From NCBI GenBank assembly GCA_033064195.1, contig JARBJD010000010.1:434001-498000 (forward strand): a stretch of DNA of 64,000 nucleotides, written 5' to 3'. Each line of letters opens with the position of its first letter. The stretch's first letter is position 1. This document shows positions 17,887-58,000 of this stretch, piece by piece. The notes under the pieces are model-generated. The model was given only the letters and a program-made list of their open reading frames with translations, made no database searches and was not told the DNA's origin. Position numbers and translations under genes: made by a program. The DNA comes from Blattamonas nauphoetae. Taxonomy: Eukaryota; Preaxostyla; Oxymonadida.

Positions 17887-20800
17887 ATGAGTCATTCATC
17901 GCTTCGCCTTAATCGTCCGGATGCCCATTCACGAGCACAAACTGCATCAGAACTTCGTCAGATTGCGTCAAAACTTCTCCATTTCCCACACAATCTTTCA
18001 ATCACAGAGATTCCATCGATTCTCTCGAAAGAGCCAATTACGAGATTTATCACTAATCCTGGATGTGTCACATTGTTTTATGCCTACACATCGGACCCTC
18101 AACAACTTTTTGCTACAAATGAAGCTCGGTCGTTTGAGGCAAGCATTGTTTCCAGGGATACGTCTCCTCTTGCAGTTCTGTCATTCGCTAAGACGCATGC
18201 AACACTTTTAACAAAAGATTCGATATTCAATCGAACACAGGTTCTTTGTTCACGCAAAAAACCAACAGAGACACTCCGAGTTTTCATTGATGGTGTGCTT
18301 CGACAAGCCCTGGACGTGATTCGGCAGAATCCAAAGCAAGCGATCCATGAAGATGAGTCATTAATTCATTATCATGAATCCACAACATTTCATTCCTATT
18401 TGAACTTATTCGGACGTGAAGCCCTCGCAGTTAACCAGAGATTGTCCGATCAAGCTCTCTATGACAAGGCGTGTTTTATTTCTCTCTATGAACGTTTATC
18501 CAGATTGGAATGATGGTTCTCTTTCGTAAGTCTCTTCTTCATGCCCAACACAAAACAGAACGGTTCTTTTATGAGCTAAGCCTCCTGGAAAAACTAGTTT
18601 CTCAAACCACAGAAGACACGAAGGCATGGACCTTTACTGAATATATAGACTTTTGGAATATCCGACACAATGTTCTATCCGAAACAATTCACAATATGAA
18701 ACAGGAAAAATGGACTGAGCACTTCAAGGAAGGGGTCCAAGCATTCAACGACCTTTTTGAAAAGGCACAATTCTGTTTAAAGGAGGCACATGTTAATAAA
18801 TCTTGTCTACAGGCTTTGGAATCCATTGTTGCAGACGTTTTGACGGCACCACCGTCGGAATACCCATCCCATCTAACAAAATTCCATGTTCTCGTAAACA
18901 GCCTCTTTTCTGCTCATATTTCATCGAAATCAATATTCCTCCTTCATCCAAGCCTGGAAATTATCCTTTCTGACTTTATTTCCCTGACCCAGAAACATAC
19001 AATCCACATAATTCGCTCTATCGAACTCCTCCTTCTCACACCATCCCATGAGATGGACTATTCAATGACCCATGAAATAATTAAAACTGTCCACGTAACA
19101 CTCGATAAACTAATCAAGGCATGTGGATTTTTGAAGGAATCTATCATAAAGACCTATCAGCAAGCGGTCTTCACAACTTCGACCAAATCTATGGATCTCC
19201 TCTCGTTTTTTCACCCATTGGACACGCTTATTGAACAACTTTCAACTATTTCTACGACTTTAAAGATGCTTTATGTTGTAAATATCACAGCTTTAACGAA
19301 TATCGCTGGATCTTTTGGCTTCGTAGTCGACGCCAATTTAGGGAATGTCCGCAAAGAATTTCATTTATTTGTGAAGAATTTGATATCAACGATCCTCACA
19401 GATTGGCATAGGTTCTCCGTTCGACGTGTCATAAAGGACACAGCTCTCACAATTGCATCCATCATCTTATCGACGATTCAATCTCAGTCAGCAAGCGTTA
19501 CCGCCAAAATTCTGACAACTGTTCAACCTTTTATTCAAAATGACATCATTTTACAAGCCATTCTTGAGCGGAAAACGTACATTCTCTCACCATTTTGGAG
19601 AGATCATCATTCTCTCTCCTCTGAGTTTAAATCTGTTTTACAGTCGCCACCATGCATTCATCGTCATTCAACGTCGTTCCGACAGATTCTTGCCCTCAAA
19701 CAGCTTCTCACTCAGGCTCAATCTCTCTTAACATCAATCGCCATTTTAACGAATGTTGTCACAGTACAACCTCACAATATGATCCCGACTGACCTCAGAA
19801 ACGATTGGAAAACATGCATAAATGACATTACTCATAAATGTCGTATTCTGAAAGAAGCTATTGGAACCAGTCTGTCCACACGACTCGACACCTGGGTGAA
19901 ACAGTTCGAATCGTACCAACAAGAGCAGTTTGGAGAGTTCTGTTTCTATCGTGCTGATTTAGACGACCAAAACGCCATCCAAATCCAACTCCCAAACTAC
20001 TCTGATCTCCTCGCTCAATATTCGGTCTGTGTCGGCTTTGGTTTCAAAGTGACGAACTTTGTGAAGGAAAACGCAGCGAAGTTGTCTCGGCTCCTGCAGC
20101 AACGACAGCAGTTGGAATACTTTCTGAACCAATATCGGATTTTGTACAACACAATTAAGCCGATCTACACGGAATGTCTCAACACTTACTCGTCGGAGGT
20201 CGACAGATGTTTGGAGAGTGGTTTGAAGGTGATCAAGTGGATGAGCCCATCGCTTGACCTCTTTGTGAAGCAATGTCTCCAAGCTATATCTCTCTATCAG
20301 CTGGAATACAACCAGCTTTTCGCTGTTCATGCATCGTACACACTCGAACTCCACACTCTTCGAAGCCAGCTTGTCTTTCACTTTCCGCAAACCCTCCTGC
20401 ACGAAGATGCTTTCGAAGACTTTCTGGAACAGACTCTGTCGAAACGAATGGAAGACCTCAGAGCATGCGATGAGCGACTCAACCACATCAAAGAACACAC
20501 TCTCATCAGAGCAGCTGATCGAAATCTAAATCTCATTGCTGTGGAGGCCTTCTTCGACACACTCGAAGCAAACAGAAACACAATTTTAGAGAATTTTGCT
20601 ACAAACACCCTCAGCTATGTTCTGAACTGTCTGCAGACAGACGCACCACTCATCGAACTTCCCCTCATGTGTTCCAACGGGGAAGTCTACTTCCATCTTC
20701 GGTGTTCTGATGAGGAGAGTGAGGACTCGATCAACTTGGTCGAATTGTTTGACCTGATGATTGTGAAACTATCTGAAATCAGTGATTGCGAGTCGTCGGA

Positions 20801-23800
20801 GGGTGTCAGCGATATCGTGCCCAGCATGTCTTCTCTCCTCATCCGATCGGAGAAGAACTGCATCGCCTTCAAAGATCGTCTTGTCTCCCAATTTTCTTTC
20901 GTCTGGAAAGACAACCCACACACTTTTTTCGAAGGCTTTCTCCGAGCTCCGATGAATCCAGGCGATGAACCCTTCCTGAATGGGTTCCCAGAATCGTTCC
21001 ACGACTTCGCAGCGATCTGTTTGATGTTGCAGGAGAAGAAGAATGCGTGGAACAAGAAGAATGGGATCCTGTTGTTGATGATCGAGGAAGTCAACCCACA
21101 AGAACGACTCGAGGCCCTCAGAGCTTCCACCCCAATTGAACACCCATACAGCGAATATCGAAAAAGAGCGAAACAACTCAATCAAGTGAACGACGGGATC
21201 AATAAACTCCCCTCGCAGGTGCCTCTTGGATGGATCTGCATCAACATCGTCTCCTTCAAGCGAGAAGTCTTCCTCCTTCTCTCGAAGTGGGGTCTTCCGT
21301 TTGCAGAGTTCACTGTGAATGAGATCTCGGCGTATGTCTCTCATGGAATGGCCCTCATCAGCATCTTCCGAAGAAGCTTCGATCCGTCCTTCTCGCACAT
21401 CACAACCGCTCAGAAAATCGACCTCATCAACACCACTCGCCGAGCCACTGTCGACGCGACAAAGATGGATGTCTTCTTCTCCACAGCTCGACTGAGGCTG
21501 AAACAGGCCGAACAGTTTCGGGTTCCTATTTTGGATCCAGTTTACACAAAACTCGACGCATTTGAGAAGGAATGGAAGCACTTCTTCAGAAATGAGATGA
21601 AGACTTTCACTGATCACATCCAACAAATCGAGAGAGATGTCTTCAACGATCTCTCTGAAAGGGAGCAGATTGTCAAGATGCAGACCACTGCCATCAAACT
21701 CTCTCTGTCCGACCCAACACAAACCCCAATGTTGGACGATCTTGACCCAACAACAGCTCTTGAAATGCTCAAAAAGCATCGTATTGCCCTCTCCGCTGTT
21801 GAGAAGCAATCGTCTGAAATCTGCAGCCTGCGGAAGAGCCTCTCAGGTGGTCTCGTCTCTCACCCGCCAGATCTCATCCATTGTGTCACTGTCATCGACT
21901 CTCTGGATTCTCTCTGGTGTCTCATCCAAGAAATGACGACATATTTGGACGGATATCTCTTCCCAATGTCTTGGACAACCTTCACAGCCGAGAATCTGAC
22001 TCCACAGTTCTTCAACACCGCACATACCACTTTGCTGTCGATGCGGGAGGCTCTGCAAAACTATCCTGTCTACCGTTCATTTGAGAACAAGATCCGACAA
22101 TACAAGCAAGTCTGGATTGTTCTGAACGATCTGAAATCAACCCCATTCGAAGTGCGATATTGGATTGAGATTCTTAACTACTTCAACATCCCGCCGACAG
22201 AGCTCTACCGACGACAGCAGGAGGCTGTCGATGGGACCATCCATCTCAGAGTGTTCTTTGAGACGTACGATAACGAGAATCTCTCTGGGATCGAAACTTT
22301 CCTTTTGAAGAGCAAGAAACAGCTCGAACTCTTCCAGAAGTTGACTGAAATCGTTGACAAATGGGCCAAAACACCTTTCCCAATCAATCCTTTGGCAACA
22401 TCGAACATTCTCCCGCTGATCCTGTCGGAAATTGAGAAGAGCAGTCGGCGGTCGAACCAACCAGTCAATCCCTTCTTCCAACAACAACACGAACAAATAT
22501 ATCACATCAACGCACCACTCTGCCTGGCCAATCTCGGAGAGGCGGAAGATGACATCTTCATTCTCGCCAACATGATGACACTCGACCATTCCTGCGATTA
22601 CCGACAGATGATCGAAGCGACGATGGACCTTCTCACGCAGATCATGATCTTCCTGAACGTCTTGTGTGACTTCGAAGACACTCTGAATACTTTCACGTCG
22701 TCCATCCAGAATGGGATTATCTCGCTTGCGGACAAGTCGGTGTTGAACGTGGCAATTTCTCTTCTCCAAATCACTCCCAACATCAATGCGATGAAAGCGA
22801 TCACTGGACCCAGCAACACGGAACTGTGCATCGCCATGGACCACATCAACCAGGACGCCCGAAATGTCCTCGCCAGCTCGCCCAAAGACATGATTCTTGC
22901 TATCGCTGAGAATAAGCCTCGTTTCTTGATGCTCACCGCGAATGAGATTGTGAACTATCTCAGCGGAATGACCGGAGACCCACATTACTTCACCATTCCT
23001 GTCAACATCCTCCGCATCTTCATGCCCGGCACCCAACGAATCGTTTTCGAGATTCCGAAAGAGAAGAAGAATGTCCTCATTTCGTGTTTGATCGGAACAG
23101 CCGGCGAAATTCTCTCGTTCGACGAAGAAGCAGTCGGGTTTGGAAATGACATCTGGAATCTCCCACACGTCCTCTACCAAACATGCACACAATTCATTCG
23201 ACGGCAGCTGGACGATGCTGTTGAATCAACCACCACAAACTCTTCGTCATTCTTCGAGTGGTTTGGGGGGCTTCTCGTGCAATACTCGTCAGTCGAGAAC
23301 TACCCTCTTCTCGTTCAGGTGTTTGTCTCGACCATCTACATCTGGTACACCTCCCTCGTTCGGCAGATTCAGGAGGACATCAACCACGAAGACGACACAA
23401 CTCTGATTGAAGCTGTTCTCACGCTGAATAACAACGTCAACCATTGTCTCGCATTCTTGATGAATGTGCAGCGGATCAGGTACCCTCTCTGGAAAGAAAA
23501 GAGAGTGGTCAACATGCTCTATCACCGACACTGTGCCGTCATCCAAGAAACTCTACGAACGGGAACGATTGAAGCTGCTCAGGCAACAGCTGACATCATT
23601 GCAGCGGATATTCTCATACAGGAAGACGTTGCGAATGTGGAGACAGACAAGCCAAATCAAAAGCCAATCGAAGACAAGATTCGATCAGGTGACATGTTCG
23701 GTGATTTCGATGATGTTGATTCTAGTTTTGATGATGCAAACCGAACAAATGCTTCCCAAAATACTTCTCATGACACAGAAAAATCAAAAGTTCCTGACTC

Positions 23801-26800
23801 CATTTTGGATACGACCTCAATTCTCTCAACATTCAGAATGATTGTGACACGGCTGATCTATCTCTTTCAGAATCTCGCCAATGAACAGGTTGCCATCATC
23901 GAGCGAATTCAAAAGAGCGGTCACAACCTTCCCGAACAGGCCATTATATCTGTGACCGAACCTCCAGCAACTCAACAAGCACCAAAACATTCACAAACAC
24001 TGATCAAATTCTCCAACACTCAGATTCTTCCGTTCTACACTCTCTACTTTGACAAACAGAGCCAACAATACTACTCCAACTTCCCGATTGGAGACATCAT
24101 GCCCAACATGACCATCTCTCAAAAGAGGTTGGTGTATGGCTTGGAGTGGGTCTCCTCCTGCAACTCACTCCCCGTGATTCCCTACACCACAGACACTCTC
24201 GAAAAGATGGATGTTATCCTTTCCGCTCTCTCCAATACAAATGCAACGAATTCACAAATCTGTGGGTGTGCTGTTTACACGACAGAAGAAGAAAGGTCAA
24301 CGAACATTCAGCTTCTCCACGACACGGCACATCTGTTCGGACGGAATTTGTTCGTCTTCAACTGTTCGATCCTCACCACAGCTGAGCAAATCAAAAGTTT
24401 CCTGCTATCGACTCTGGTTGACTCTCATTTCATTCTGTTTGACAACCTTCATCGCCTCCCAGAGCTCGTCCTTCATTCTCTCGTGGACTTCTTGAAGCTC
24501 CTCATCAACTGGAGAAACAAACACCATACGACTCAGTCTGGCTTCACTGAGATCGACATCGAAGGAATGAAGACAACCATCACTCTTCCACTCTCAGATT
24601 GGTTTGTGGTGGGAACATTTGTTGTCAAGGAGCCAAACTATAACAAACTACCATTCTTCATCGAAGACGTGTTCGTCCCCGTCACTTTCAGCCCTCCGGA
24701 TCCGACTCCCCTCTTGGCAATGCTCCTGACAGGAGAAGGCTTCGTGTTTGCTGAGCAGCATGCTACACGTCTCATCACGTTCTTTCAAAGTCTGATCTCT
24801 CTCATGCAGTACGAATTCAAGTCGACCTCAAGACAGTTTAACTCACTCTTCTTATCGTTCTCATTTCTTGCATCATTTGCGAAAGAGGCAGGACATCTCC
24901 ATCGAATCACCCTCTCCATGCCTCCTCCGGATGCAGAATGGAAGTCAACTCGTGTGCAGGGTGCTCCCCATTTCCATAAAGATAAAAAGTTCCAGAACAC
25001 CATTCTCCAACTTGAAGAAGGTGCAATCCGAGCTCATCTCCTCGACACGATCAAGAAAGTCGTGTCGATTTGCCTTCCTCTCAACATCATCCACCCACAA
25101 CACACATCCACATCACTTGTCGGGGAAAACACGTCATCTCTCGTCCCCATTGTAACAACAATCCAATCACAAATCTACTCGTTCTTCCCAGTCCATCTCG
25201 AGAAGAACCAATCCCGCAATCAAGTCAATATATCGTCTCTGCAGTCCGTCTCAATTCCTCACAACTTCCAAATGCATGTGCAAGCTGTATTGACTAAATC
25301 TGGATACGCTGACGAGTCTCAATTCATCCAGCAATGTTATGCTGTCTTCAAAGCCATTGAGAACAACACAGTCTCTGTCATCAGTGGCCCAACTGGTGCC
25401 GGAAAGGCAACTGTCCTCGAAGTTGTCCGAATGATCCAACAGCGCTTCAACATGGAGAATCCAGAGATGCTCATGATCAGGTATCCACTGAGCCGACCGA
25501 AGCAGGATTCCATCGATTCTGTGATATACAGTCAAGAATTCCTCTACGAACAGCTCACCATCCATCTCTTCTGCAACAAAATCTCGCATGGAGGACATAT
25601 GTCCGTGTTTGATGCCATCAACGACAAAAGTCATCGTCCGATCTGGCTGATTGTGCCGATTGACAACGCCAGGCCGGTGACCACGTTCAGCTTCTTCTTC
25701 GAGGAGATCTTTGGGGCGACTACAACCACTGACAATGGAATCATCGAATTCTCCTTCTACACCCATGAAAAGATTGTTCTTCCGCCAAATTCAAAGCTGA
25801 TATTCGTCGTATCCTCGCCAATCTTCGACCTCCCGTCGGCATTTTACACGCATACATCGCTTGTTCATATTTCGTTCCCAACCATCACAACCATGAACTG
25901 GATTCTGTCCACATGGATGAAGGAAGTCGTCGGAACTGTGCTCCCAACAGAGCATGCCCAGGCGACAGGTCTCCTCTTCAGGATGCTCTTAACGAAATGT
26001 ATGCAATTTCTGAAGACTCAATCGAACACATCAATGCACACCATCGTCTCACGCATCCCAACAATCAGCATCCTCAAAACTGCTCTCTCCATATTCACCG
26101 CTGCTCTCCGGCTTTTCAGCGTACAGATTGTGGGCAAATTTGACATCTTCCTCATCCGAATGCTTCTCATCTTTTGTATCTTCTGGGCCGGAGGAGGTCA
26201 TCTGGAGTCGGAGCTTCCATCGATTTCTCAATTCGAAGATTGGATGTCTGAGTGGAAACGAAAACATTCAACCCCGTTGCAACTGAAAGTCACGCCTGTG
26301 ATGGATGATGATGGGAATGAGTCTTCTCGAAGACAGACGGACAACAAAACCCGGTCTGATTTTGATGTCTTTGTTCGATCGAGCTTCGGAAATGACGTTG
26401 AATTTGGGAAGCTTGGAACTGTGTTTGACTATTCGGTCGATCTGGACGAAAAACAACCGACTTACATCTCAAACCCCAACACACATCCTGTCACGTTCAG
26501 CATGCTCATCGATCATCCACCACGACCTCTTTTCGGAACGTTTACTCCTTTCCTCGCCTTGTGCAATGTGTGTCGATTGTCCTTGATAGGTGATCGTCCT
26601 GTCCTCCTCCTAAATGACAAGTTCATCGGGAGGCAAAGCATAGCCCAAGCCATTGCAGAAGTGATGGTGGATGTTCCTCGTTTTGGGCTATCGCAGACGT
26701 CAGCCCTGAGAAGGAAAGGAGATTTGAAACAACACCCGTTCGTCCTCAACGTGACACAAACAGCCATCGACGTACCAAACATTCTCTACTCTAAATTATT

Positions 26801-29800
26801 CAAATCAGTTGCTCTCAGGCAATGTATTCCAGACAATCCTGATCGACCACTCGTTCTGTGCTTCAATGATTCATACTCCGATGATTCAGACATGACTCAA
26901 CCACAGAATTCGATGCTCTCTGCTTTTCTTGACTCCATCTTCATCGACGAGGAATACAGGGCACGCGCATCGCTTGTGAAACAGCCGCTCTTTATCGTTG
27001 CCTCTGACAGGTATTTCTTCAATCAGTCCGTCAATGTTGCCCAAACCTCGAAGTTATCAGTCTTCCAGATTCCAGAAATGGAATTGAATGACTTTGTCTC
27101 ACTTGCGAGTGCTTTATGGGATCACACAATGCAGATCCGCGGGAAAGAGCTGTTCGCAAACAATTTCTTCCGTTCAGAGGCCGAACTCCACGAAGCAAGA
27201 ACTTTCTTCATCAGCACACTCGTCACTGCAACCATGTATCTTCATCTCTCCTTCGCAAGTTCTCCCAATGGCCTCCAACGTCCAACAATCAATGCTTACC
27301 TGGAAGTGATCAACTCCATCTGTTCATGCCCAGTCCCGCTTCTTGCTCGGAAGGATTATTTGTTTTCTCTCTGGCTATGGGAATGTCTTCGTGTGTACTC
27401 TGTCATACAGTGGACAACCACAACCAAACTTCATGCAATGAAGTTGATTTATCATGTTTATTCCACGTTCCTCCAACAACGTGTGAGAGTCTCGTCAGAT
27501 GATCGGACAGAATCCGTGACTGATCGGTCGTTCCTCCTCTTCGATCACACGAACAGGTCTCTCCCTCTGTTCTATGAGCCCTCCAATCCTGTTGAAAACA
27601 ATCTACCAAACTGTTTCACAATCATCCCCGATTCTGTCTCATCTGGCGATGCTGTGGTTCTTCTCAACATGAGCCAAGCACTTCGTAGCCGCTCCGTCGC
27701 CAATGTATTCCTCATGTCGTGCGAGTCTATCCAAAAAGCAACACGGCCGATTCTGTACTTCGACGCTCACAGTCTCACGGCACTCTCCATCTGCAAAACT
27801 GCTTCATACTTCATGGGTTTCAAGTTGTTTGACTTTGTCTTCCCGTCAATTATGAAACATCTCATCTACCTTTTTGAGCTTCTTGCCGAGGCCATTGGTG
27901 ATCTCTTCCCTCCCAGCGCAATCCGTCCTGATCAGCCGGATCCCAATCTCACCTGTCCACTCATCGAAATGGGTATTCGAACTGTCCGTCCCACTTTCGT
28001 AGTCGCTCTTTCGTATGGTCGGTCCTGCTCGTTCACTCACCAACTTTCCGAGTTCCTCAACGGACTCTTCGTAGATCGACGATTTTTTGCATCAAATCTC
28101 GAACTTCCTGAGCCTGACTACAACTTTCGCACGTCTTCTCACTCAACAGCTGATTTCATCAAGTTTTTTACTCAACAACTCATCGAATACTACTTCCAGA
28201 AGTATCAGGAGGTCCTCTCAATTGCAGATATATGTGCCATTGTGGACAGACTAACTGTGTACGGCCGATTGATCATCAATGTGCCATTTGCGACACAATT
28301 GGTTGTCTCGAAAGAAATGCCATTCCTTTCTTCGAATGCCATTCATATTCATGCATCCCCCACCGATAAAGAAGCACTCAAACAGATTGCCGAAAATTCT
28401 CTCCAACCGCTCTTCGGAATTCTCTCGCCTTACCTACATCAGAAGATGATCTCGTTTCGGGTCCAAAAATCTGCACTTTCGAACAAAGACACCACACTCA
28501 AAGATGCGATCGTCGAAACACTTGCTTCTCTCTTCCTCATCACTCGGAAGCACGATGAGTACAGCGCACAGGGAACCGTTTTCAACATCAAACAAGAAGA
28601 ATCTGATATTGGTCATCTCCAAATTCGGCCACCATCAACTTTGTCGTTTGTGGAGTTTGTCCACTCGTTCTCGAGATTCTTGCTGTACAAAGTGAAGTAT
28701 CTCCAGAACACAATTACCGTTACGGAATCGGCTGTGACCACTCTCTCATCATTCAGACAAGCAACAGAACTCTTCAAACAAAACCTCAAAGCAGAGTCGT
28801 CGTCTCTTCAAACAACCACTGTCGAAAAGCAACTTCAGGAAACAAATGAAACGTTGAACGAAATAATTCTTCTCTACGATCGGCAAATCGAATCACTTCG
28901 AGAACAGAACGCTGACCTCGGTCTCGGAATGTCATCGGTTCATTTTGTGATGAACGACCCAAATCTGTCGTTGTATGTCAAAGATTATCAGAAAGCGATG
29001 ACGTCTATCATCGACGTCAAAACACATCACGTCGAGGAACTTGTCGCTTTTGCTGTCTACAACGCAGACGCTCATAAGCTCGTCAATTCACTTCTCTTGT
29101 TCTTGTCAGAGGAGGATGATGTTCCAATGGAATGGCCGGAGCATTCCTTCAACGATCTTCTCGGAGAGTTGTGGAGTGTGGACATCTTTGATGCGAGAGA
29201 AGCCAACAGACTACGGGTTGAATACATTCTCGTGGAAGAGTTGAATGTGGATGACCTCCCACAGATCCCTCAGTTCACTATTGTTCTCTACAAATGGCTG
29301 CAATCAATCGTGGCTCTGGCCTCCAAGTTTGCAAGCTTCCCAGAACAAAAACAAACGATGTTTTTAGGAACATGTCATCAAATTCTTCTGAAGATGAAAC
29401 TTACCCGGAGCGAGAATTCTCGAGGATCTCTTCAAAATGTGCAGAAAGAAATTCAAAGTGCCCTGAAACAAGTCCAGAACAATCCACTATGCACTGACAG
29501 AGCTCTTCAGAATGGGCAACAGCTCCTTGTTCAAGGTGAAGAGATGATGCTGATGGCATCTAAACTGAATGATTTTCTCGAAAATGTGATTGAAGATACA
29601 AACAAGCAGCTTCGAGTTGCCATCGGATCCTCAATTATCACGGCCTTCCATTTCATCTTGAATAACTTCTTTACACCGTCCACATCAACCGTCCTCATTC
29701 ACGATTTTGCCGTCCCAATCCTTCAAGACAATGGGATCCTTTTCCCGTCTGTCATCGATCCTCTGTACGATTTTGGGCGTTATTCCTCCAGTCAACTTGT

Positions 29801-32800
29801 GATGATGGCGAAGAAGAATGGAGAAGGAGATCTCAACGACGATCGCTTGATGTCCTTCGGAGATATTGTGCGGAATCATCGTCTTCCATACGTCACCATT
29901 CCGCAGACACTCTTGGAGGACACCACAAAAGGCTTGTTACTATACGCTGACACATTCAGAGGTCGAGATTCGTTTCTCACGCAGCCATTGATGGATGATG
30001 CAAACGACTCCGAAATTGATCTGAACCTCTTCATCGGTGCAGACAAGACCGCACAGCTCTCCTTCTCAAGCGGAGATCGGAAGATGGTGGACCATCTTGC
30101 TTTCATTTTGTATCATGCCGGCTGGTTCGCTCGCTTGTTGGGGTCGCCCTCTCTAAACCGTGTTCACTCAGCAACTTCCTCATTCAGCGGGACTCTTCTT
30201 CCAAATCAGAATCAACAAGCGCCAATGTTCCCTTCACAAGTCAAAGTCACTCTGTTTTTCGATCCACTGGAAGTCATTCTTCCATCGATTACGCATTCCA
30301 TGACAGCCTCCTCCACGCTCTATCATGTCTACGATATTCAGCATCCGGCCACGTCACCGTTTGTGATCTCGCTGAGGGATCCATCGTTCCTCCAGAAAAT
30401 GCACGATGTCTTCCAAATGCTTCAGGATCTTCATCAACAAAATGTGAATCAGAAGACTGTACCTCTCAGACGGAACGCAATCTTCTTCACTGACGTCTGC
30501 GATCAGACAACCTCGTATCCGCTTCTCTTCCTACTCGCCCAATACCGATCATCTGCTAACTCCCTCCTGACGCGTGGTGGCTTCTATGACTACACGTCAA
30601 TACACATCGGTTCCACGGACTTCACTGTCAAATTGATGAAAGCTGACACAAAGGCCTGCTGGCGAACAGAGGAGATTGTGTCATACACAATCTCCTGTGA
30701 CGTCGATCTCATCCTGGTTGCTGATCGGACATCAACATCCACCTTTACGAGTCCAGTGTTCATCGACGCTGCGCCTCGTGTGATTGTCCCTGATGAATGG
30801 ACGGTTCAAACAACATTACTTGAACCAACAGGACGAATTGTCACCGAATGCGTCAAACGGACTCAATCAAGCGTCCTCTTTGGTGAAGATATCAACACAC
30901 TCACCCCCAACCTGATGAGAGTGTCTGAACTGATGCATCAGTACTCGGAAAAACTGTCAGAAGCCACAACTTTCATCCTCGAACACTTCTCTCATCAACT
31001 CTTGCCTCTTCCGGTTTATCGCGACGATATCCTTTTTGACTTCATCCAAAACAACTTCGATGCACCAAATACTTTCGATGCAATGGACGCAATCTCAGAA
31101 CAAGCCACCCTCGTGTCGGATGTGTACTCTCAGTCTCTCGTCACACATAGTGTCTTTCAAGATCACAACACTGGTGAGGAACTTGTCTCATCACTCAAAG
31201 CATCTGTCATTCTTTTTTCTGACCTCATCCACTGGAAGAAGGAAGCAAACGAACAGTACAACACAATGCATCAACAGCTCTACCAGATAATGAATAAGTG
31301 CCTGGAAAACGATTCAAAATTGAAATCCGGTCTGAGTTGGCTCAGATTCTGCTACTCCTGGACGGTCATTCACGTTCATCCCTTCCTCTCCACAATCTCT
31401 CCATTCGTCTCTTGCCTCTTGAGACAGTTGGACAAGCCTTTCACAACGAACAAATATGTCCCGTACGGCCTGACGTATCACTCCCTCGTGAATACCATCT
31501 TCACCGTCTGGATGAATGCAATGGAGAAGGAGATGAATCGAGTCAGTGGGCCAGCCCAGGGGAAGTCCTTTGATGGTGACGATTTCATCAACGAGGAGAA
31601 ACCTTTCTCGAAGCGTTTCGAATCTGACAACATGTCCAATCTCACAACAGAATCGAGGCATGCTCTCATCCAGAGTCATCTGAGCACCGACATCAACACA
31701 TCTCCAGTTGGCCTCAGCGAACAATCCAGGCAGGCGGTTAGTGGAGAGTTCACACGCAACATCATCGAGACGATGTGTTCGATCATCAACGACACTGATT
31801 CTCTCCTCGCGTCATTCTTCGACATTTCGTATACACTCGCCTGTCAAACAGGAGAACCATTACAAAGGAATGAAACCCTTGCCTTCCTCTATCCACTCAA
31901 CTTATTGATCAACGATGTGAGTGCGTCGCTTGGATTGACTCCAATCGATCCTTCACATTATCACTCCCCAACGTTCTCGTTTTTGGAGGTCACAAACTTG
32001 CTCTTCCCAGCGATGACGGCGGTTGTTCAAACTGCCGGTCTCCTCCCCCTCAATCCAGTTCCGTCTTTCATTCCCGAATCATTATGGAAGAATATTTTCA
32101 TCTTTGGTCTCATTTGCCCAGCATTCAGACCTTTCGTGACCGATCTTGAGCCGCATTGCCAGAATGTCTATTCCCTCATCGATCACATGAAACCCGGCTC
32201 ACTGGATCCAGGAATCGCTCTTCAAACAGTTTATTTCTCAACATCTGTTCTGAACACAAATCGGGGACGTTCACCTGCTCTGGAGAAGAGGAGCCAACAT
32301 GGAGGAATGGGAAGGCAACGATCAATGCTGGAACTGACAACCCAACGACAGCAAAGGCTTCAGCAGACTCACCACACATCCAACTCACTCAAGGGCATTC
32401 ACCTCCAGCAGCCTGAAAATACTCGGAAGGGTATCCCATTCACACGGGAGTCATTTGTCTTGCATTCAGAATATACACCCTTTGGGTCTGTTCGGATCCA
32501 ACCCCCGAACCTCGAAGTGAGTGCTTCACACACCAGAATTCGAATGTTCAATGAAACAAAGGAGAAGAATCCTTTTTCATCTTATTCATTCACTCCGGAG
32601 CCAAAGCAAACTCTCACCACAAAAGTGATCGATTCTTCATCTCCACTTCTCACCAACATCCAACGGAAATGGGCAGACTGGATGCGGTCAGACGCTCCGG
32701 AACTTATCAGCTTCCCCAACTCGGATCTCAACACACTCAATCAGTTCCAACGTGTCTTGTTCTTCAATGTTGTCCGCCCAGACCGACTCCGACATGCGAT

Positions 32801-35800
32801 CCGAATCGCCATTGCAGCGTCACCTGCGTTTGGACCAAATGTTGCCTACTTTGACTCCCTTCTCCCATCGAGCTCGTCGACCGTGTCGCCAGGTGTAAGT
32901 CATCCTTCCCAACCCGGTACCAACCCAACATCTCTCAGAATGTCGATCAACCCAAGCCCGTCAATGTATTGTGGAATCCCAACGCTGAACAGACTCTATC
33001 TCAAACCAGATCATACCACACATCTCACCTCGCTTCAACCCGAGTTTTACGACCCCTTCTTCCAGATGATCATTCTGGAATGCGTCGATACACTTGGGCA
33101 TGCTCCAGTTTCGTTCACTCGACTCCATTCTGACCTTGCGTCCTTGGCGACGGTTCGAGATCGGAAACTGGTTACGATTCGACTTTCAGAGTCCTTCCGA
33201 TCGACCATGAACAGTCTGGTCAATTCAGCTCGTCGGATTGATGTCTTGACGGAGTCTGCTGTGGAATACGTTTGGGAACGAACCTGGGAGCACATCAAGC
33301 AATCATTTGACTCGCTCATTTCAAAAGAACCTGTCTGGATCGTTCTCGAAGGAATTGAACTTGCCACAATGTCGTTCATTGGCCCATTCATAGCTTGGTT
33401 GAACACATTGGCTCTTCAAAATCTTCCAAACTCTGTGCATCTGGATCATGAGGTCGTCTTCTGGATTCTGGGTCTCCCCAACTTCGAAGTGAAAGATCGC
33501 GCCACGTTCAAGTCGATGGACCGGATCAGCAAACTGTTTTATATTCGCCAACCCAAGTCTTTCAGAGGAACTTTGGCGTCCTCACTCATCCAGATCTCTC
33601 CTCTCTGCACATCTGAAGCTCTCCTCAATCGATGCCGACACTACGATCCATCAGCACAGAAAGACTCCCCAATCACCCGAACACTCCTCTACCTTGTCTT
33701 CTCTGTTGTTGTCTGCCACAGTCTGTTCGTCGAGTATTTCAGAACCCTCTCTCATTTGGATCACTCCTTCCGAATCGCTCTCACTGAAGTCAGTCTCGAA
33801 AGGATGGTCAAAGCAGTCCTCGCAACACCAACCGGAACGACTGCCAGACGCGCCAGAGATCAGGGCAGTGCTTTGCCTGTTTCGGAGTCAATTGTGTGGA
33901 TGAATGTGATTCAAAAGATCAAAACAGTCGCATATCCACATCTCTCACGATTCATCAATCAGGAGTTGTTGGATATGATTGTTGATCCGATCCTTGAATA
34001 CGATGCTTTCATCTCGAGCGGATCTTTGCCAATTCTGCCCGGGATCCCATTCCCAACTGAGGAATCGTCTTTCACATCCATCAACCAGTACTTCAGTGCA
34101 GTTCTGAGTGCATCTACTTCTCGTTCACGAGCTCGTTCTCTGAGTATCTCTCACAGCCTCGCTCAGCGATGCCTCTCAATCACTCTCGGTTCTTCCGAGC
34201 AGCTTCGACCGCTCGTTCCAGTTGAGAACGGATGCCTCCTTGACCCGTTCCATTCGGATTACTCGCCATTCAGACACAACCTCATCTCGATGATCCGCGC
34301 CCTCCACCATCTGGAATCGATCCCGACAAAGTTCGTCCGTCAGGACTTTCTCATCGCCAGTGAGGGTCAACGATTGAGCATGTACATCAATATTCGGATT
34401 GGGCAAGAGATCAAAGAGCTGTCACAGCCGACTTACTTCGACATTGACACAATTACAAAACTCTTGATTGGATTGTATTCTTCAGAGTCGTCGATTCCAC
34501 CCACACTACTCTGCCTGCTCAGAGAAGCCAACTTGCACAACGCACTCCTCTCACACATCTTTGATTATGTAGACAATCTTCCTACGATCTCAAAAGCAAT
34601 GGTGTCTGGCACAGCAAACTCGTCTCTCTCTCTGTATGCATCAGAGGACAAGCAAGCTGAGTTCTTCTCTCAACTCCTCACGAGATCTTCCACATTCTTG
34701 AAAACATGGATCAGCATCTCACAAAATGTCGTCCCAACAAATTGGAGAATCGTCACGCATTCGACACGAACAACTCTCTTCCACACGTGGCTCAATTTTG
34801 TGATTGGTGGAGTCCAACAGATCCATCGAATATTCTCTTTCATTCCCATCAACCAACGTCTCAGAGATTGTGTGACAGTTGGAACAACAACATCCACGCA
34901 ACTGAAAGGCGAACGAGCAATGAAAAACGCACTATATGTTGTCCCGTACCATCTTCTCCGCCCAAAAGCCTTTCTAAATAGTCTCATTCAGGAAATTGTG
35001 ATGTCGCTGAACACGGTCATCATGTCCCGACTCGACATGGACCACAATTCACTCCATCGACGGTTTATCAGACTTGCCCAGCACTTCGACCTGACAAGCC
35101 ACCTCCCGCTGGACACTCAAACAATCGCCCCATCACTATTTGCTTCTCTTGCTCCTCATGGCCTTGGTCGGTCCAAATTAAGCACCCCACATCTGAATGA
35201 TTCGACAACACTCAACACAACTGGTCACAGTCTGGCAACATTGCATGGTGTGGCACCCTCCGTACCCGACACTGTCCGCTTCCTCTCCTTCTGCGATGTC
35301 TCTCTCCGACTCATCCCGACCACTCGTCAACCAGACAGCCTTGCATCGGTGACTTCGTCCTCGTTCATCTACCGTCCGCTGAACTCCGTCTTCTTTGGTG
35401 GAGTCACCTTTTCATCAAAATCGGGGCATTACTTCAGCATGAAGCAACAAACTGTGACAATCAGCCCGTCGTACTTCCCGCCTTCGATTGCTTCGCAGGA
35501 AACTGAAGCAACAGTCGCAGGAAGCCAGATTCTGTCGTGGAAGTCACGTACACAGATGATGTCGGCGAATCTCACGCAGAACCTCTCCCAAACACAGCAG
35601 ATCCAATCAATCTCTCGTGTCAATCTGAACAAGTTGATGGTTGTTCGTCCTTATTCCAATCGACCCAACGATATCGACTATATCATCTCGACACCCACAA
35701 AAGCCCTCTCAATCTCGATGTTCCCTGATCGTGGAGACTACCTCTCCCAGTTCACTCGTCGGCCCAACCAGACAACGTCCATCCTCCCCATCTTCCACAC

Positions 35801-36026
35801 TGTTGTGTGTGTCAAGGACGAAAACGGGGTTGTGCGATCCCTGGATGGGCTCCAGGTCGAGGACGACACATTCACGCAGCAGGTCTTCCAGCTTCCTCTA
35901 ACAGTCCACGAAACTCAGAAACCGATTCCGAGATACACTGTCGTCCTCCCTGTGAAAGACAAAAAGGTCTTTCATGGAGATTACTCGATTAATATTTCTA
36001 CTGATACGGTTCTTGGTTTTCTATAA
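17887..36026 (+). CDS. Very large, degenerate dynein heavy chain
   Basis: Exons 17887-18493 and 18559-36026, joined by an inferred 65-base intron (GTTTAT to AACAG) that closes in phase; about 6,024 residues against 4,000-4,600 usual for the family. Readable parts are the N-terminal tail, the linker (about residues 1270-1370, SWTTFTAENLTPQFF, RYWIEILNYF), the AAA ring, a stalk coiled coil (from about 3590), a microtubule-binding-like region, and an AAA6 region with WADWMRSDAPELISFP and FQRVLFFNVVRPDR (about 4906). AAA1 keeps LFVFNCS but has no Walker A (text AVYTTEEERST) and FDN instead of DE in Walker B. AAA2 keeps GPTGAGKAT (about 2478). AAA3 and AAA4 also lack P-loops. ATP-driven motility is doubtful; a structural role is possible. 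The stop TAA overlaps AATAAA. Confidence 0.85.
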
Positions 36027-55068: not shown

Positions 55069-58000
55069 TTACGTTTTGAGCGGGGGAAGATAGTGTTGAG
55101 TCAATTCGCTGTCCTTCTCGATGGAAATCGCTGGAGAGGGACTAGCGTCTGTAGAAACACCAAGTAAAGATCCGGCAGACTGGGTGTTCCCGGGTCCACC
55201 TTGCTTTTGAGTTTTGCTTTTTGGGTCGTCTGGTTGATTGGATGAAGTGAGTGGGATGAGATTGAGAGCAGGGGATGGCGCATTTGAAGGGAGGCTGTGG
55301 GGAATAACTCCAAGGGCACTGAGAGTGCTACGCATGTAGTTGGGGAGAACAGATGGATTGGAAGTGGTTCTGTTGATGATGGGTCGTGGCTTTTGCTCCT
55401 CTCTCGGTCGAGCAGGGTTGTGTGATGTGACAGTCCGTCTGTTGTCGGATCGATCTCGTCGCTCAGCCGCCAGGCCTCGCTCTACGCTTGTTCCTCTTTT
55501 CTTTCGTTGCGGTGGAGACTTGTTTCTGTTCTGTCTGTCTTCCGTATCCTTTGGTGAGCTTGTCCGAGTTGGATTCTCTGACGCGGAACCGCGTTTTTTC
55601 GGCTGGCGTTGGAGAAGTCCAGATGTTTTGGCGATGACCGGAACTGAAATTAAGATCTCTCGTTCTCGCATCTCCTCCTCAAGTTTTTTCCGCTTGCGCT
55701 CGTCCTCTTTCTCCTTCTCTCTCTGCTTCGCTCGTTCCCATCTGAGCTGCCATTCCAGTTGTCGTGTGTAATATGCTTCGAGTTCTTTCTCGTTCTTTTC
55801 GCGTTTGTCTTGTTCTTGCTTCTCTCTGTCAAGTCTTTCTCGTTCTCTGATTAATCGTTCAATATCTCGAGATTTCTTTGGTTCCTTGACTGGTTGGAGT
55901 TCAACCTCTTCGTTGATTGACGTGTTCTGATGATCGCTTGGAGTCTCCTCGTTCATTTGAGTTTTCTCGTTCGGTGGCTCCGTAGTCTTATCCGTGTTCG
56001 GAATGAGAATCTCGTCTGTCAGTCCTGGTGAATTCTTCTCCATGTTTTGAGGAGGATCGATGACGGGAAGTGTGAGTTTGTTCATGTGTGGGGAGGGGAT
56101 AGTGATTGTCTCGAGCAACGATGGGAGTTTCTCGAAAGTGGCTGGTGATTGTTGGATGGGGGTAATGTTTCTTGATCGATCTCGCTCGATCTTTTCCTCT
56201 TCGCTGAAAACGAGTATGTTCGTTTCTTGATCACGATTGTCGTTGTCCGCTCCTGAATCAGATTTGTGAGCGCGCTTGGCTCTGTTGGAGAGTTTTGACT
56301 CGTTTCTCTCGACCCGCTTTGAACGTTTCTTCTCTTCCTTCACGTCAACCACTCCGTACGGAGAGAGGTTGATTTTCGCGCGGATTTCGTCTCTTTCCTG
56401 GAGGGCTCTTTGTCGCTCCTTCAGATCCATCAGCCTCTCTTTCCTCCTCCTCTCCCTCTCTTTCATGTCTCGAGATTTCGCCGCTTCTTCTCTCCGGAGC
56501 TTCGACGAAGTTGTCTCGATCGGAACAAAAACAGGATTGGACGAGCGTTGCGGGGTGAGATTCGCGTCTTTGTCTTCCTCCCAAAACTTCACAAGTTCAG
56601 CATCGTTCAATCCAGAATACTTGTTGTACCCGACTGTCAGGGCACTTGGGTATATTCTTTTGAAACCGCCCAGGCGTCCGTCCTCCCATTCTGTCAGTTG
56701 TCTGATGAACCGCTCTGCATGGTTTTGAGTCGACGGCTGTGTTTCTTCGCTCTGCTCCTCGTCTGAGCTCTCGGAGTCGTTCTCTGATGCAATTGGTGTC
56801 TCCAAGGAGTGCGACTGGTCAACATGTTCTTTCACTGTCTTCTCCTTCCGAGACTTCCGTTCCTTCTTTGCGCGAGAATAGATCTGCTCTGTCTGAACGA
56901 GTCGTTGAGAGAGATCCGGTGTTCGTTTCGGGTCACGTTTCCGCTTCCTGCCATCCTTCTCTTTGTCCAGTCTAGTTCCATATCTGATCTGATTCTCCAT
57001 GATCTTCTGCTGCTCCCATTCTTCCATTCTCTCGTGCGAGCGTGCGTAATGATTCATCCACTGCGGTTGATACAGTCTCTGTGCTGTCTCCTTCCTCTCC
57101 TTCCGCAGGATGCAGTCTCGTTCATCAGGGCTCAGATCGACAAGACGGAGGACGTCGCTGAGAAGCGAGTACTTCACACGAAAGTCAAGAGGGGTGTCGC
57201 ATTGGAACGACGGCGAATGGTTGACCTCGATGACGTGCGGACGGTGCTGGCTGTCCAGCATCACGTCAAATCCAAGCACTTCGAAGCACATGGACGTGTG
57301 TGTTCCGCTGGAGTAGAGAAAGAAAGACTGTGAACGTATGAGTTCCTCCTTTGTCATCGAACTGAAGTCCGTGTTGAACTTCTGCTCCAACTTGGACTTT
57401 CTTCGCCGTACGTAGGGGTCCAGTCCCGATGTCGTGGGAGATGTGAGGGTTTTGTAGAGTTTCCAGAGTTTCTCCTGGATGGGGAGGACGGTTTTGACGC
57501 AGACCTGACTTATTTCGTCCCAAAGAGCGGAATCGTCAATACCCTCGACTTCTCGAAGGTATCTTCGGTAGCTATCAATAGTCCATTTACTTCCTTTCCC
57601 ACCATCCTGCTCTCCATTTTCGTCAAACACAAAATCTGCACTCTTTTTGTTGACAGCGTAATTTGTGAGGTGCATGAATTCGTTTTCGATATTTTCGTTG
57701 GTAGGAGCTTCATATGGAGTTGTGGCAAAGCGTACAAGACCCTCTCGATGCATGAACATCCGAAGAGGGAAGCAGGATGAGACAAGCACATAGAGGCGAA
57801 TGTCATACTTGAGCTTGTTAATAAGATGAGGGTGTGCGATGTAAGTTTGCACAATGCAATCATCTGTCGCCGAGATGTTATCAATATTGCGGGTGAGATA
57901 GATTCCACGACCTTGACATGATGCATCAGGTTTCACGATGAAGGTGCGTTGCTTCTTCCCGAGATTGTGAAAATAATGTCTCAGACCAACGAAACTATCA

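Follow-up and report, generated by a model that had tools for sequence, protein, structure and literature searches.

A family of giant dynein heavy chain-like proteins lacking the AAA1 nucleotide site in the oxymonad Blattamonas nauphoetae

The stretch analysed here, a window of 64,000 nucleotides of the Blattamonas nauphoetae genome (GenBank assembly GCA_033064195.1, contig JARBJD010000010.1, forward-strand positions 434,001 to 498,000), contains an open reading frame (ORF) at window positions 18510-36026 on the plus strand. Read with the standard code, it encodes a dynein heavy chain-like protein of 5838 amino acids (aa), hereafter the window protein, with a 99% match over the region searched to the public model BLNAU_2481 of the same species (5471 aa). 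Judged by how often stops occur in the remaining two forward frames, ln P for an open run of this length to arise by chance is about -209. The tail (DHC_N1, aa 41-583, 18630-20258, 7e-11) and the linker (DHC_N2, aa 1124-1304, 21879-22421, 5.1e-11) are both matched above the Pfam cut-off, as expected of a member of the dynein heavy chain family. The other matches are to AAA_6, which begins at profile position 50 and covers the remainder of AAA1 (aa 1937-2096, 24318-24797, 6.4e-7), and to Dynein_AAA_lid, which covers the AAA2 lid (aa 2489-2589, 25974-26276, 1.1e-6). Only these dynein families exceeded the cut-off in the window protein, with neither an RNF213 E3 module nor a midasin MIDAS domain among them. 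All features of this gene are on the plus strand.

The gene had been singled out, from the sequence alone, as a heavy chain with no P-loop in AAA1, AAA3 or AAA4 and with a P-loop kept in AAA2 (hereafter the original prediction). We read the motifs directly, which confirmed the position of every motif quoted in the original prediction, and aligned a profile of the window protein and five paralogues with one built from four heavy chains (global 99.8%, E 9.7e-27; local 98.7%, E 4.5e-16). By both approaches, the AAA1 Walker A position (24270-24302) is occupied by AVYTTEEERST, which is not a P-loop; the sequence LFVFNCS follows at 24348, and the Walker B position (24438-24446) reads FDN, paired with FDE by the profile alignment. 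The AAA2 P-loop, GPTGAGKA, is at 25386-25409. In the profile alignment the canonical P-loops pair with CAVYTTEEERST (AAA1), GPTGAGKA (AAA2), LNDKFIGRQS (AAA3) and FDAHSLTALS (AAA4), the last two within precisely the segments without P-loops that the original prediction had named, LLNDKFIGRQS at 26607-26639 and YFDAHSLTALS at 27756-27788. A normal AAA1 Walker A elsewhere in the protein would have contradicted this picture, but the relaxed pattern [AG]xxxxGK occurs only once in all 5838 residues, in AAA2.

The window gene is not a lone decayed gene but one of at least 18 giants without AAA1 sites. A Pfam search across the genome (88.3 Mb, 837 contigs) gave 50 AAA_6 and 56 DHC_N2 matches. The canonical set consists of 15 heavy chains in which AAA_6 is matched in full within an open frame, interrupted canonical-looking fragments being excluded. 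Beside them is a second set of giant open frames, 5.6-8.2 thousand codons long in 15 of 18 members, with C284 (4812 codons) and C827 (3267) shorter and the frame of C556 broken up. The count of 18 is a lower bound taken from the AAA_6 and DHC_N2 matches; it leaves out short-frame matches, among them seven to AAA_6 around profile positions 155-206. The AAA1-AAA2 part was read in the window protein and its 17 paralogues, and separately in a further chain, C667a. By BLAST, the giants comprise subfamily A (n = 6: the window protein, C13, C223, C135, C246 and C667b), subfamily B (n = 11: C24, C5, C323, C556, C1, C827, C335, C284, C47, C379 and C28) and C712, which is outside both and whose sole BLAST link is a weak match to C667a (3e-6). 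The BLAST link between A and B is also weak (C223-C1, 2e-5).

The search also returned other heavy chain sequences. Pieces of heavy chains that look more canonical, several of them interrupted by internal stops, are present at C211, C301, C125 (two places), C579:48k, C25 and C444, and suggest pseudogenes or intron-rich genes. Two heavy chains, at C837:60-69k and C147:30-39k, are 92% identical in the part compared and group with DYNC2H1 in the tree. Short stretches at C13:41k, C20, C124, C201, C457, C701 and C123 share an identical sub-threshold DHC_N2 score over positions 15-92; these are possibly a repeated element carrying a piece of a heavy chain, or a chance match.

The loss of the AAA1 site extends to all 18 giants. 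The Walker A sequence GPAGTGKT, FDEFN and the sensor-I MNP, the three AAA1 features of an active dynein, are all present in 15 of 15 intact canonical chains from this genome, while AAA1 Walker A, FDExN and sensor-I were found in none of the 18 giants (C556 was inspected in pieces). A strict AAA2 Walker A is present in 16 of the 18, and the two non-strict P-loops, in the window protein and in C13 (GPVGSAKQ), still have the lysine. The alignments thus show the AAA1 Walker A, Walker B glutamate and sensor-I to be lost, and the AAA2 lysine to be kept, in 18/18. The chance expectation of a strict P-loop motif is 0.07-0.14 per protein for eight whole or near-whole proteins. Few alignment columns are invariant (31 in subfamily A, 17 in B), and those of the P-loop glycines and lysine belong to them. 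No second strict P-loop, in AAA3 or AAA4, was detected in the six A members or in the public models of C323 and C556 from B. For subfamily B, this check of AAA3 and AAA4 covered C323 (P0009) and C556 (P0003, which begins after the AAA1 Walker sites), and the AAA3/AAA4 part of the B-to-canonical alignment is apparently misaligned. The relaxed pattern [AG]xxxxGK was found in C223 (ANSLLGK), C135 (AEGPSGK), C556 (ASITLGK) and C323 (GVIGGGK), the last adjoining the AAA1 Walker B position.

By profile comparison, the dynein layout is shown to be kept in subfamily A, with the tail and linker recognised by Pfam and the linker, ring, stalk-length segment and C-terminal part aligned by profile. The local alignment of subfamily A to canonical chains is collinear from the linker to the C-terminus (3074 columns, 99.6%, E 4.8e-25). 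Together with the AAA1-AAA4 sites, this gives the six AAA domains in order and then a C-terminal domain, as in the dynein heavy chain family, the part from AAA5 to the C-terminus being the least certain. The 3´ parts of the five paralogues were fetched, with three of the frames closed by a stop and the other two still open at the end of the fetched sequence; the six members align from the linker with 12-25% mean identity per 150-residue block to residue ~5400 and more weakly beyond. Between AAA4 and AAA5, local hhalign places, with low confidence, a stalk-like stretch of ~307 aa (28686-29606) that is near the canonical length and has no Pfam MT match. Within it, also at low alignment confidence, an LP motif is found in six of six members and a W after it, as where the second coil of canonical chains begins, in five of six. 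The same method aligns a late-ring signature, FQRVLFFNVVRPDRL (32745-32789), to the canonical FQQLLLVQAVRPDRL, and a C-terminal-domain signature, LLRPKAFLNSLIQE (34953-34994), to LFHPDTFLNALRQE. A single-sequence search of the PDB was too weak (best E 0.0092), whereas profile searches succeeded: the matches of subfamily A included DYNC1H1 chains (1.7e-10) and, more strongly, an alpha heavy chain from an axonemal dynein (8.3e-13), and those of subfamily B included DNAH10 (2.8e-25) and DYNC2H1 (2.9e-25).

A tree spanning the linker through AAA2 (1162 columns and 29 rows, with 4 of the 11 B members) gives subfamilies A and B a support of 100 each and keeps every giant out of the canonical set (92), the order being A, B, C712, C667a. 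Under a simpler model, leaving out either A, or B together with C712, the canonical set still stands apart (96 and 94). The giants fall within no canonical class in these trees, and the long branches make their placing unsure. C667a (C667:419-433k, 7273 codons) has AAA1 GPSGVGKT and LDEIN, AAA2 GAAGTGKT, and GPQDAGKH at the expected AAA3 position, and looks from these motifs to be a less divergent intermediate between canonical and AAA1-less chains. A single AAA1 loss after a C667a-like stage would fit the tree, though long branches could give the same order. Protein searches for orthologues listed only B. nauphoetae proteins (those of the window gene, C556 and C323) and, in one search, five weak dynein matches (three named DYNC2H1, two unnamed); they do not demonstrate absence from other oxymonads, since the search with C556 listed neither C5 nor C24, its near paralogues. 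Among the open-licence papers listed, none described an AAA1-less heavy chain family, though one may be mentioned elsewhere, and the word dynein does not occur in the main text of PMC10703272 (B. nauphoetae genome) or PMC8767320 (M. exilis assembly). Neither PMC9916431, on DNHD1, nor PMC4759005, on the flagellum of an oxymonad, contributed usable information.

Taken together, these observations indicate that the product of the window gene is probably a structural protein that derives from a dynein heavy chain and does not step, with at least 17 more like it in the genome, and that its most likely role would be that of an ATP-stiffened scaffold or crosslinker. In dyneins, AAA1 is described as the principal site of hydrolysis and the one nucleotide site that every member conserves; the ATP in dynein AAA2 is neither hydrolysed nor exchanged and keeps AAA2-AAA3 closed (PMC4047620). 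Because ordinary dyneins hold a structural, non-hydrolysed ATP in AAA2, the retained AAA2 would be a structural site and not a relocated motor. Loss of AAA1 would leave no power stroke, and one permanent ATP in AAA2 (with AAA3) may clamp and stiffen the ring with no stepping cycle. A dynein head with an empty AAA1 adopts the nucleotide-free form, which binds tightly. Having an AAA1 that is permanently empty, the heads of the giants would stay in that form and, if the stalk still binds microtubules, could act as a static crosslinker or ruler, with diversified paralogues perhaps setting different spacings or engaging different partners. The original prediction had proposed a non-motile, possibly structural or regulatory dynein-like protein, which agrees with the loss of the AAA1 catalytic residues in all 18 giants and the kept structural AAA2; it had missed the gene family, the ordinary structural nature of the AAA2 site and the imperfection of the window protein's AAA2 P-loop.

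Several observations weigh against this structural reading. The AAA2 P-loop, which was correctly predicted to be present, is itself imperfect in the window protein, reading GKA instead of GK[ST], with alanine where the Mg-coordinating serine or threonine is usual, and that of C13 is worse. In both PDB alignments displayed for subfamily A, the score over the AAA2 stretch is negative. The global-mode profile run (99.9%, E 3.3e-30), unlike the local one, puts the template end at window residue ~4440, which makes the placement of the C-terminal half less certain. There is no match of the window gene to Pfam Dynein_heavy, MT or AAA_8. The MT family (PF12777) is recognised in C667a (141 bits), C712 (91) and, weakly, C1 (24-26), and microtubule binding by the window protein is doubtful on these profile matches. 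An AlphaFold2 model of aa 1821-2640 from an 8-row alignment was unusable (pLDDT 31, pTM 0.23). Purifying selection on the C323/C556 pair (dN/dS ~0.17; dN 0.30, dS 1.73, 1136 codons) speaks for the structural reading, but it is seen in one subfamily B pair, the sole unsaturated one of four giant pairs, and may partly record past selection because the C556 frame is broken in AAA1. Finally, placement in the lineage-specific microtubule arrays of the pre-axostyle and axostyle, or in an axoneme, is conjecture, a guess at the location.

Other explanations can be set against the same data. The giants might be dead partner subunits that dimerise through the tail with an active heavy chain and regulate or tether it, in which case the contacts of tail and linker would carry the function and the ring would be ballast. 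DHC_N1 and DHC_N2 are indeed the two families that score highest in Pfam for the window protein, and 15 intact canonical chains are available as possible partners; however, the ring seems to matter, because to residue ~5400 all six members of subfamily A retain it about as well as the linker, at similarly low identity, and we regard this alternative as unlikely. Slow decay of redundant heavy chains on their way to becoming pseudogenes, a course ascribed to human DNHD1 in a description of that gene (PMC8754002), would account for the very long branches, the loss of most motifs and the broken frame of C556. It is difficult to reconcile with open frames of more than 3000 codons in 17 of the 18 giants, with a P-loop lysine that is invariant in A and in B, and with the low dN/dS of the one informative pair, and is accordingly judged improbable.

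That AAA2 took over hydrolysis, making the protein a motor of a new sort, might be suggested by the AAA2 P-loop being the sole site kept. We consider this very improbable, given that the AAA2 Walker B has no catalytic glutamate (PIWLIVPIDN in the window protein, consensus EIFLVxDL in subfamily B), as in ordinary AAA2, and that the window P-loop ends in GKA. The AAA2 H2 insert is reported to be involved in linker bending (PMC4047620), and its strict motif is present in none of the 18 giants, yet in only 8 of the 15 canonical chains from this genome, with a WxxG remnant in C5 and C667b; its absence from the giants is therefore a weak argument. An artefact, with AAA1 mis-assembled or read in the wrong frame, is scarcely credible. 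The data come from a single assembly and the N-terminal gene model is unsettled, but the same loss in 17 paralogues located on other contigs makes mis-assembly, which would have undone the original prediction, very unlikely, and the AAA1 sequence after the Walker A position is collinear with solved dyneins. Our preferred reading remains that of a non-stepping structural dynein relative.

With respect to the gene model, the original prediction was right about an open frame of 17.5 kb, which is at 18510-36026, and wrong about a start at 17887, as positions 17887-18509 (plus strand), just 5´ of the ORF, are open in a different frame, with a possible intron or indel at the join. BLNAU_2481 begins elsewhere, with a different first exon, and the 5´ gene model is provisional. 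This public model also omits 17 residues, RYPLSRPKQDSIDSVIY, in AAA2 (25479-25529, plus strand), where the frame is open; the omission is possibly a mis-called intron. The table 6 code was tried for the ORF and gained only 28 codons at the 3´ end, so the standard code holds. The neighbours of the gene encode a ubiquitin hydrolase, an elongation-factor-like GTPase and a tubulin-tyrosine-ligase-like protein, and say little about its role. The last of these, a gene of the Tubulin-tyrosine-ligase family (TTL, 5.8e-56), is at 55069-57936 on the minus strand of the window.

The family amounts to a natural dissection of a motor, in which at least 18 heavy chains have lost the very site that is described as conserved throughout the dyneins and have retained the structural AAA2. 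It shows what in such a machine is worth retaining when movement is gone, offers a test of the role of the AAA2 ATP, and makes the giants candidate components of oxymonad-specific microtubule structures. We tentatively raise the possibility, not the likelier outcome, of a second dynein superfamily in oxymonads, which would have lost AAA1 once, hold the AAA2 ATP as its only nucleotide, outnumber the motor dyneins and build ATP-stiffened, non-cycling microtubule crosslinks for the oxymonads' own arrays, with C667a as a surviving intermediate.

Among known systems, the giants share their domain order with canonical heavy chains (DYNC1H1, DYNC2H1, DNAH), and the profiles of both subfamilies match dynein PDB chains. 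They differ from canonical chains in their length in 15 of 18 cases and in standing outside the canonical tree, and the window protein differs in having lost the AAA1, AAA3 and AAA4 sites and kept the AAA2 P-loop alone. DNHD1 is described as a heavy chain relative distinct from the 15 motor chains of humans, and as an orphan or ghost gene (PMC8754002); it is likened to the giants by this description alone, and is one gene where the giants number at least 18. RNF213, as portrayed in PMC7311170, resembles the giants in its dynein-like ring without an active AAA1 and in the ATP held, as molecular glue, in a non-catalytic AAA2. It has an active AAA3 and AAA4 and an E3 module, unlike the window protein, which has a dynein tail and linker and no P-loop except that of AAA2. 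Midasin/Rea1, with six AAA domains in one chain according to the same source, aligns with the profile of subfamily B at the AAA2 P-loop (E ~1e-18), but the window protein has no midasin family among its Pfam matches and does have the dynein tail and linker. On sequence grounds, heavy chains that are AAA1-less and AAA2-retaining suggest that a motor protein became a family of non-moving structural proteins.

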